A DNA stretch of 40,728 bases. It comes from a virus. Under the pieces are notes generated by a model that saw only the letters and a list, made by a program, of their open reading frames with translations, was not told the DNA's origin and made no database searches. Made by a program: the position numbers and the translations under genes. Shown here in pieces: positions 14,268 to 20,636 of the stretch (position 1 is its first letter; every line of letters begins with the position of its first letter). Location: positions 1 to 40,728 of the IMG/VR virus record IMGVR_UViG_3300047157_000045; one strand, 5' to 3'.

Positions 14268-14299
14268 AAAATAAAAAGGCAGCCACCCTCGTAGCTGCC
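14268..14299 (-). terminator. Rho-independent terminator after ssb
   Basis: On the minus strand a GGCAGC/GCTGCC stem with a 10-base loop (14299-14278) is followed by TTTTTATTTT. It lies between the ssb stop (14324) and the primase-helicase start (14252). It would end or reduce transcription after ssb, so that SSB is made in excess over the polymerase and helicase. Confidence 0.75.
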
Positions 14300-14323
14300 C
14301 CATCTAACACTGCCTATCTTACA

Positions 14324-14707
14324 TTAGAAATCAGATTCATCTAGTTCCCCAGCACCATCTGCTTTCTCTTCAACTCGCACTGCTTCTAAGTAACTAAAAG
14401 CAGACCAGTCACCCTTGCCAGGCTTAACCTTCATAGTCACAGTGTCACCGTATAGAGAAAGATGATTGATACCAACCTCCTCCTTGTCGACATTGTAAAC
14501 TTTAGGTGCACCGAAATCTATCTTACGAGTAGCGGTGATTTGCGTAGCACCATCATACTCCTTAGTTTTCAGTCCTTGTTTCTCAGCAAGTTTCTTACTA
14601 TCCTTATCCAACGCAATCGTCAAAGAATATTTCTCCGTTCCCTTATACACATCGGGCTTTAAAACGTGGTTAAAAACCACAGTACCAACTAAACTCATAG
14701 CACTCAT
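14324..14707 (-). CDS. ssb: Single-stranded DNA-binding protein, T7 gp2.5-like
   Basis: This 127-residue protein starts at the ATG at 14707 (MSAMSLVGTVVFNHVL) after AGGAGTTATAT; upstream in-frame Met codons lack a ribosome-binding site. The N-terminal block (KPDVYKGTEKYSLTIALDKD) and the following beta-rich region fit the phage OB-fold SSB family. The acidic end, ELDESDF, finishes in Phe, the feature by which T7 gp2.5 contacts polymerase and helicase. It coats single strands at the fork. It has its own structured leader upstream (14733-14895) and a terminator downstream, which suggests separate control of its amount. Confidence 0.83.
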   Translation of the reverse strand: MSAMSLVGTVVFNHVLKPDVYKGTEKYSLTIALDKDSKKLAEKQGLKTKEYDGATQITATRKIDFGAPKVYNVDKEEVGINHLSLYGDTVTMKVKPGKGDWSAFSYLEAVRVEEKADGAGELDESDF

Positions 14708-14732
14708 ATATAACTCCTGTAACATTAACATT

Positions 14733-14895
14733 TATGACCCGTGGGTCTCCAACTAGTAGGTAATCCTACTAAGGGTACACTGGAAAATAAGGAAGGAAAA
14801 CCAGTGTACTCTTAGAAAGACTAAGAACCTAAGACTATCTAGGAGTGAGTGTTTGGGTACTCACCCACAAACTCAAACCTAGACTGTCTTAGTAT
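14733..14895 (-). promoter_or_regulatory. Highly structured leader upstream of ssb (five stem-loops)
   Basis: A 163-base non-coding stretch is almost fully self-complementary. The stems are CTAAGAC (14829-14835) with GTCTTAG (14886-14892), enclosing TCTAGG/CCTAGA with a 2x2 internal loop and GAGT/ACTC plus GGGT/ACCC inside; CTTAG/CTAAG (14811-14825); GTACACTGG (14775-14783) with CCAGTGTAC (14801-14809); TAGTAGG/CCTACTA (14754-14771); and GACC/GGTC (14736-14747). No U-run follows any stem, so these are not simple terminators. As minus-strand RNA it would be the ssb 5' leader. A structured control element or a separate RNA is likely; a replication-origin role is also possible. Confidence 0.6.
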
Positions 14896-14913
14896 TGTAG
14901 GAGATACAAGTAA

Positions 14914-15114
14914 TTAAATTTTAGCTGACGTTTCAGGATGTGTCAAGCTATTTGCTATCTTTTTTTCCTGATCCATATGCTCCTTGTTGTATGCATCTGA
15001 ACGCATATACTCCTCGACCATAGCATCGATGATGTCTTGCTCGGTAACTTTATCTATGTCACCACCGCGTAGCTCATCCATCTTATCTATCATCATTTGT
15101 TTAAATACTCCCAT
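14914..15114 (-). CDS. Small acidic protein, 66 aa
   Basis: The ATG at 15114 follows GGGAGGTAATTA. The product (MGVFKQMMIDKMDELRGGDI and onward) is Met/Asp/Glu/Lys-rich, predicted helical, with no membrane segment or known motif. It overlaps the preceding gene by one base (TAATG). It belongs to the run of small early genes before ssb; such genes often encode host-takeover factors, but nothing in the sequence shows a target. Confidence 0.65.
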   Translation of the reverse strand: MGVFKQMMIDKMDELRGGDIDKVTEQDIIDAMVEEYMRSDAYNKEHMDQEKKIANSLTHPETSAKI

Positions 15115-18072: not shown

Positions 18073-18103
18073 ACTTACTCCTTCCTTAGTTATAAAGAGT
18101 AAA

Positions 18104-18130
18104 GGATACTCCGAAGTCTTCGGAATATCC
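18104..18130 (-). promoter_or_regulatory. Hairpin leader before methyltransferase gene
   Basis: A near-perfect palindrome (GGATA, one base, TCCGAA, GTC loop, TTCGGA, one base, TATCC) sits 32 bases before the methyltransferase start. On the minus strand it is followed by TTTACTCTTTATAAC, a weak U-rich tract. It is a member of the dispersed CTCCGAAG-type hairpin family. The flanks (AAACTAAGGG before, TTTACTCTTT after) recur around the hairpin at 19326-19344. It could be an attenuator or a transcript-end hairpin. Confidence 0.6.
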
Positions 18131-18138
18131 CTTAGTTT

Positions 18139-20037: not shown

Positions 20038-20535
20038 TTAAGACTTAGCGATTTTCTTTTTAAGGAACTCCGCTCTATTGTCTTTTAGTGCTTTGTACCA
20101 TTCATTAAAAGATACAACGTCTAGATCATTGGCATAGTCTTGAATCTTGTTCAAAAATGCTAGGTTTTCCGCGTTCTCTTTGTTTTCTTTAGCAAGTCTT
20201 TTTTTCTCGCTTTGTTCAACACTAAGAACGGGCTTGAAGTCTTTACGGTTGAATTTAGGACTATTAGGTTTCGTTCCTATATTCACAAGGCAAAGAATGT
20301 CACCATCTTTCAGCTTGTTTTCTTTGTCATTAACGAAAGGCTTAAAAGCGTCTTTGATATTGTGATTCAAAGAATCGTTGGCTCTGTAGCCGTCCGAATC
20401 TCTAACGCCTTGAGCGTCTTTTTTAAAGCCCATAGCAACGGTCAACAAAGACTTCTTACCGCTCTCACTCACTCTCCCATTGGCTAAGTCTAAGACCTCG
20501 CGTATTTCGTTTATGAATCTGCTTTTTACTCTCAT
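20038..20535 (-). CDS. Unknown basic protein, 165 aa, first gene of the minus arm
   Basis: The start is taken as the ATG at 20535 (MRVKSRFINEIREVLDLANG). A longer frame to 20754 would translate a repeat-laden leader as protein and is rejected. The protein is Lys/Asp/Asn-rich: a helical start, SGKKSLLTVAMGFKKDAQG, DGDILCLVNIGTKPN (a beta pair) and a charged C-terminal coiled segment (EKKRLAKENKENAENLAFL). Family unknown. It is a single-gene transcription unit bounded by a strong terminator and preceded by hairpins, one of which folds the GGAG just before the ATG. Two of the three GATC sites outside the GATCAGG motif lie in this gene or its leader, as expected if it is a recent arrival. Confidence 0.65.
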   Translation of the reverse strand: MRVKSRFINEIREVLDLANGRVSESGKKSLLTVAMGFKKDAQGVRDSDGYRANDSLNHNIKDAFKPFVNDKENKLKDGDILCLVNIGTKPNSPKFNRKDFKPVLSVEQSEKKRLAKENKENAENLAFLNKIQDYANDLDVVSFNEWYKALKDNRAEFLKKKIAKS

Positions 20536-20536
20536 T

Positions 20537-20636
20537 CTCCGAGGACTTCGGAATGAATGTTTCCGAGGACTTCCCTCGAATATCTCCCCGCCAAAACTCC
20601 GAGGACTTCGGAGAATTTCCCCAGGAAAGATCCTGG
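20537..20636 (-). repeat. Cluster of four hairpins in the leader of the first minus-arm gene
   Basis: Three copies of the dispersed hairpin lie here: 20537-20552 (complete stem), 20562-20574 (half only, CCGAGGACTT then diverging) and 20597-20613 (perfect CTCCGAGGACTTCGGAG). A different hairpin, CCAGGA-AAGA-TCCTGG, follows at 20621-20636. The first copy ends two bases before the ATG at 20535 and includes the only Shine-Dalgarno-like GGAG, so it could hide the start site. Confidence 0.65.

Follow-up and report, generated by a model that had tools for sequence, protein, structure and literature searches.

A conserved structured RNA in the ssb leader of a group of uncultured viruses

Bacteriophage T4 gp32 represses its own translation when it is in excess over single-stranded DNA. 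Its binding nucleates at a structured element and extends through UUAA(A)-rich sequence as far as the ribosome-binding site (PMC535899, PMC3014915). Here we describe an element, at positions 14733-14895 of a 40.7-kb viral record (the window, meaning the whole stretch of DNA that was analysed), that precedes the gene for a single-stranded DNA-binding protein (SSB) and shares part of this arrangement. As in the T4 operator, an A+U-rich UUAA(A) stretch covers the ribosome-binding site: a UUAAUGUU-type sequence stands before the Shine-Dalgarno AGGAG in the window (14714-14733, minus strand, the 3' end of the leader) and in most relatives, where an AUGUUAA-type stretch recurs a few bases upstream of the Shine-Dalgarno. 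The UUAA(A) repeats lie outside the predicted hairpins, while the window's Shine-Dalgarno itself is predicted to pair with a small hairpin at the 5' end of the leader (hairpin 0).

The ssb transcription unit and its carriers

The window has no close isolated relative. Its ssb region, searched as DNA and as protein, gave zero matches among 50,697 records of isolated phages, and the best identities of its portal protein and primase are about 44% and about 40%. Nor was any contig encoding a relative of the window SSB found in bacterial or archaeal genomes. Relatives were collected via ssb, primase and DNA patterns; 36 viral contigs (31 distinct cores) have the element between promoter and ssb, as does a divergent 37th. 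The carriers are a group of uncultured viruses, apparently tailed phages.

The element has a small ORF (14914-15114) on one side and ssb on the other, each encoded on the minus strand. A sigma-70-like promoter on that strand (TTGACA-17-TAAAAT, 14946-14918) has 11 of 12 consensus bases, with a -10-like box at the same place in 36 of 36 relatives, and puts the predicted transcript start near 14911. Translation of ssb probably does not begin at the listed ORF start, 14731. The best ribosome-binding site, AGGAG at 14714-14718, matches an ATG at 14705-14707, eight codons inside the listed ORF, so that the leader spans about 14911 to 14708 and ssb (14324-14707, minus strand) encodes 127 amino acids. 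An intrinsic terminator follows directly (14276-14301, minus strand), and all relatives examined have a G+C-rich hairpin there, mostly with a T-rich tail. The element is wholly within the 5' leader (about 200 nt) of a monocistronic ssb unit consisting of promoter, leader, ssb and terminator. The order of -10-like box, leader, ssb and G+C-rich hairpin recurs across the 36 compared sequences, and in L125-L132 the promoter-leader-ssb unit is retained although the sequence upstream of the promoter differs.

The SSB carries an acidic C-terminal tail with a terminal Phe, conserved in its relatives, and is predicted to have an OB fold of the Enc34/T7 gp2.5 type. The ORF matches phrog_112 (gp2.5-like SSB) weakly (1e-4), and Foldseek matches to a structural model (mean pLDDT 76) include the Enc34 SSB (3.8e-5), a DUF2815 protein and T7 gp2.5 (7e-4); since the TM-scores are moderate (0.5-0.64), membership of this fold is likely rather than certain. 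Sequence searches of Pfam and PDB with the SSB gave nothing usable, including no Pfam match to the DUF2815 family, and no gp32 appears among the 50 best fold matches listed.

How closely is the element tied to this gene? The core loop-and-stem sequence TTCCTTCCTTATTTTCCAG is found before ssb in 21 of 21 viral contigs. A covariance model run on the window matches the element and its reverse complement only, so that the element, found once, is specific to the ssb gene. The same model found no clear relative at loci with more distant ssb genes, which implies that the element is not needed for ssb generally; marginal matches were L074 (E 0.019) and a second place in L278 (E 0.011). A search with TTTTTNCTTCCATTTTT returned, among the matches listed, mostly unrelated AT-rich sequence, the 23-bp long stem being present in these only at two ssb loci (L148, L160) and reaching at most 8 bp in the others. 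No Rfam 15 family reached its gathering threshold in the window, and with E relaxed to 10 the matches were all to microRNAs, below threshold and of a chance type, in line with the earlier suggestion of a new structured RNA. Some distant ssb homologues (L068, L080, L089, L091-L094) have long A+T-rich post-promoter leaders with hairpin-like repeats that the model does not match, possibly a different family of structured leaders.

Folding of the leader and its core hairpin

The sequence-only reading had described a strongly paired non-coding stretch of five tandem stem-loops, one of them branched and none followed by a U-run. The strong pairing is confirmed, with z-scores of -6.2 to -6.9 against shuffles. 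The stretch 14733-14895 folds at -64.5 kcal/mol on the plus strand (z -6.86) and at -67.7 kcal/mol on the minus strand, that of ssb (z -6.21; 0 of 200 shuffles as good), and the whole leader (14911-14708) at -77.5 kcal/mol (z -6.94); in a 160-nt scan across the window the element ranks third of 1016 stretches (z -6.2). Relatives' leaders, folded from the right start, give z of about -3 to -8.5, a range that leaves out L003, L028 (leader >330 nt), L044, L139 and L023. All five stem-loops are present and a U-run follows none of them, but the layout needs amendment: the big stem thought to be branched (14829-14892) is a single hairpin with internal loops, there is a sixth small hairpin at the 5' end (14895-14909, loop UCUCC), and hairpins 2-4 (14754-14826), nearly equal in energy to their alternative in the window, give way to one long hairpin in most relatives and in the comparative consensus.

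The best stretch of the scan is a strong 16-bp hairpin at 18100-18134 (minus strand, z -6.5), with a small ORF on one side and a C5-cytosine methyltransferase gene on the other. Elsewhere in the window, CTCCGAGGACTTCGGA occurs at 20534-20616 in two exact copies (20537-20552, 20597-20612) and one partial copy; these self-complementary hairpins adjoin a divergent region at 20.64-20.97 kb, near the cumulative GC-skew minimum.

The conserved core is the long hairpin (14761-14823, minus strand), whose arms, 14801-14823 and 14761-14783, are the top inverted repeat of the window (I1) and which is paired in 94.5% of 713 cells. Across relatives it is a hairpin of 22-25 bp, its stem rewritten by compensatory changes and its loop of 13-19 nt retained. 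In alignment A3, which comprises 36 viral loci with 31 distinct core sequences, window included, and leaves out L012 with its 44-nt loop, two-sided changes occur at 12 of 23 aligned core pairs; cells with such changes number 85, while shuffles gave 26.3 and slid controls no more than 7. L012 has a 25-bp stem and still matches the covariance model with 41.8 bits. The upper 9 bp of the long hairpin, hairpin C (14775-14809, minus strand), are paired in 99.6% of cells, with two-sided changes at 7 of 9 pairs in alignment A2. The covariation search proposed earlier has found conserved pairing, with compensatory changes in the core hairpin. Both the structure and the RNA nature of the element are well supported.

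The pyrimidine-rich loop UUUUCCUUCCUUAUUUU (14784-14800, minus strand) is kept across the stem rewriting in alignments A2 and A3 and is predicted to be unpaired, with probability 0.99 in the window and 0.84-1.00 elsewhere where computed. It is U-rich throughout, and UUCC is present except in L039 and L040, in which the loop motif is weaker. By sequence, a pseudoknot of the loop with the Shine-Dalgarno (UUCC with GGAG) is possible; nested folding and comparison give hairpins, and because the Shine-Dalgarno is invariant, covariation with the loop cannot occur.

Two smaller hairpins compete with parts of the core. Hairpin D (14754-14771, minus strand), which excludes the base of the long hairpin, is paired in 96.8% of cells and shows on the tree 3 double compensations, 6 changes to G-U, 0 to A-C and 2 pair-breaking changes. 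The strand 14771-14766 has stayed able to pair with either of two partners, the lower arm of the long hairpin and the 3' arm of D. Hairpin B (14810-14826, minus strand), an alternative to the lower long hairpin, is poorly supported by comparison (81% of cells paired). While the two arrangements are nearly equal in energy in the window (-26.5 versus -25.5), almost every relative folds better into the long hairpin. We therefore reject five independent tandem hairpins as the conserved structure, given the 27 pair-breaking changes in B and the better fit of the long hairpin, with D still supported.

At the 5' end, hairpin 0 (14895-14909, minus strand; UUGUA-UCUCC-UACAA) presents a CUCC complementary to the GGAG of the Shine-Dalgarno. 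Such CUCC loops, on stems of 5-12 bp, occur in 11 of 36 sequences, the window among them, all in its own subgroup. The pairing is predicted in several subgroup members and in the window, where the Shine-Dalgarno has an unpaired probability of 0.01; in most relatives the Shine-Dalgarno is not predicted to be sequestered (about half unpaired). Stem A (14829-14892, minus strand) has 15-nt arms, CUAAGACAGUCUAGG and CCUAGAUAGUCUUAG, with internal loops; the arms can be recognised in 21 sequences, in 20 of which 13-15 of the 15 positions are paired. Its tip is replaced completely from one relative to another, and the stem is absent or unrecognisable in some and hence not universal. Hairpin E (14736-14747, minus strand; GACC-CACG-GGUC) is kept in most relatives though its stem sequence is replaced, has a UUCG loop in several, and is missing from L134, L148 and L160.

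Leaders of relatives measure 187-257 nt, the exceptions being those with a small ORF inside (L005, L006, L270) or another insert (L028). The small ORF (about 4250-4500 in L005) is inserted between stem A and the long hairpin, and by eye it looks like the last part of the gene that precedes the ssb leader in L126, L131 and L132. The insert in L028 (4310-4540), of roughly 240 nt, lies between hairpin D and the ribosome-binding site, and the single frame translated contains stops.

RNA signal and candidate functions

Do the hairpins act as RNA or as DNA? One-sided changes in hairpins C and D, the two best stems, with ancestral states by parsimony on a single 380-nt ssb gene tree and columns chosen for pairing, give 16 changes to G-U on the ssb-sense strand and 0 to A-C, which on the opposite strand would read as G-T (p = 1.5e-5); with the stem base added, G-U stands at 25 and A-C at 3 (p = 1.4e-5). 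Transitions at ssb third codon positions are balanced (A to G plus C to T 202, G to A plus T to C 217). The excess of G-U indicates selection on the RNA of the ssb strand, which counts against an origin of replication, the main alternative of the sequence-only reading. An origin or other DNA hairpin site would be expected to show strand-symmetric pairing, and the ratio is 16:0. The origin is disfavoured further by the position between promoter and ssb in every relative.

The features expected of a cis-acting structured mRNA leader are all found: an upstream promoter, the gene's own strand and a structure kept by compensatory change. Together with conservation alongside ssb and the strand-specific G-U bias, they strongly support the proposal that the element is a structured mRNA leader of ssb. 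Our favoured reading, to which we assign a probability of about one half, is that the element is a cis-acting RNA controlling ssb expression, most likely through autogenous translational control by SSB; its position, its gene specificity, the conserved single-stranded loop and the UUAAUG run before the Shine-Dalgarno all fit the T4 pattern. By analogy with that pattern we infer that SSB would bind the leader, and T4-like autoregulation is plausible.

In such a mechanism the leader would set the level of ssb translation. Excess SSB, free of single-stranded DNA, would bind the pyrimidine-rich loop that the long hairpin presents and would also cover the unstructured UUAAUG-rich stretch over the Shine-Dalgarno, blocking ribosome entry; in the window's subgroup the extra 5' CUCC loop could pair with the Shine-Dalgarno as well. 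Since the Shine-Dalgarno is mostly unsequestered in relatives, repression would have to come from bound protein and not from the fold alone. In the Enc34 SSB-DNA complex, hydrogen bonds are made to thymine bases; the paper in question describes no binding of RNA by Enc34-type SSBs, and the word RNA is absent from it (PMC5686142). The thymine contacts are in keeping with a U-rich RNA site for a similar SSB.

What else could such a leader do? It might be a passive stabiliser and translation enhancer: host ribonucleases would be kept off the ssb mRNA by the 5' stems, and ribosomal protein S1 or the 30S subunit would be recruited by the U-rich loop, giving high SSB output without feedback. The stems do start near the predicted 5' end, the unit's own promoter and terminator suggest a strongly expressed and stable message, and the loop is single-stranded and U-rich; however, a pure stabiliser needs no conservation of the loop, which was kept during stem rewriting, nor the maintenance of two mutually exclusive folds, and we consider this reading rather unlikely. 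Those two folds, both supported, make a switch possible, and the retention of both the long hairpin and D is compatible with one, as it is with D as a fallback fold. That the leader is a bistable RNA switch, flipped between the folds by SSB level (or translation), we hold to be a somewhat more doubtful proposition; if true, it would be a convergent and mechanistically different answer to T4's SSB autoregulation.

Large structured leaders often bind ligands or factors, and here the element follows a promoter, with a strong terminator just downstream and replication genes beyond. The RNA could thus sense a factor other than SSB (a host or other phage protein, or a metabolite) or act as an antiterminator past the ssb terminator, perhaps in the manner of HK022 put RNA. 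Against this, the element occurs beside ssb only, once in the window, and resembles no Rfam family, so that we find such a role improbable. Least credible by far is that the hairpins work as DNA, whether as an origin of replication or as a primase or single-strand initiation site. They are close to replication genes, yet a DNA hairpin or cruciform offers no cause for the G-U bias of 16:0 (25:3), the element always lies between the promoter and the ssb start, and the cumulative GC skew has its extremes near 6 and 20 kb and none at the element.

Relation to known systems

The SSB shares its fold and its acidic tail ending in Phe with T7 gene 2.5, for which we know of no structured autoregulatory leader. 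A DUF2815 RNA motif was reportedly proposed by Weinberg in 2017 as a candidate RNA in front of genes from the DUF2815 family, to which the Enc34 SSB belongs. The present element differs in that it has no Rfam match at the gathering threshold and none to a motif of this kind at E up to 10, in a copy of Rfam that may not include this motif, and its SSB shares only fold similarity with the DUF2815 family. Like our element, the STAXI motif (PMC2864571) is a structured element often near genes for SSB or other DNA-handling proteins, and the UUCG loops in hairpin E of several relatives are a further likeness. However, STAXI consists of two or three copies of a pseudoknot, while the core here is a single long hairpin; neither tandem pseudoknot repeats nor an Rfam match was found.

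The gene 32 operator of T4 and RB69 likewise has a structured element on its 5' side and, after it, unstructured A+U-rich sequence that covers the ribosome-binding site of a phage SSB gene (PMC535899, PMC3014915). In both, the start codon is preceded by UUAA-type repeats, and an extra ORF adjoins the operator in T4 (segG) as a small ORF does in L005, L006 and L270. Yet the T4 element is a pseudoknot of ~28 nt about 67 nt upstream, whereas the long hairpin here, with its U-rich loop, spans 63 nt and lies inside a multi-hairpin leader of ~200 nt, and the SSB resembles Enc34/gp2.5 and not the gp32 family. The leader would work like that of T4 gene 32 but is not considered its homologue. With this element, the small set of structured RNAs known at phage replication genes gains a well-supported member that Rfam lacks; since the loop is conserved, the binding hypothesis is directly testable with short RNAs. 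More generally, this locus offers a clear test of whether SSB autoregulation, detailed in T4-like phages, arose a second time, with neither the SSB fold nor the RNA related to those of T4.
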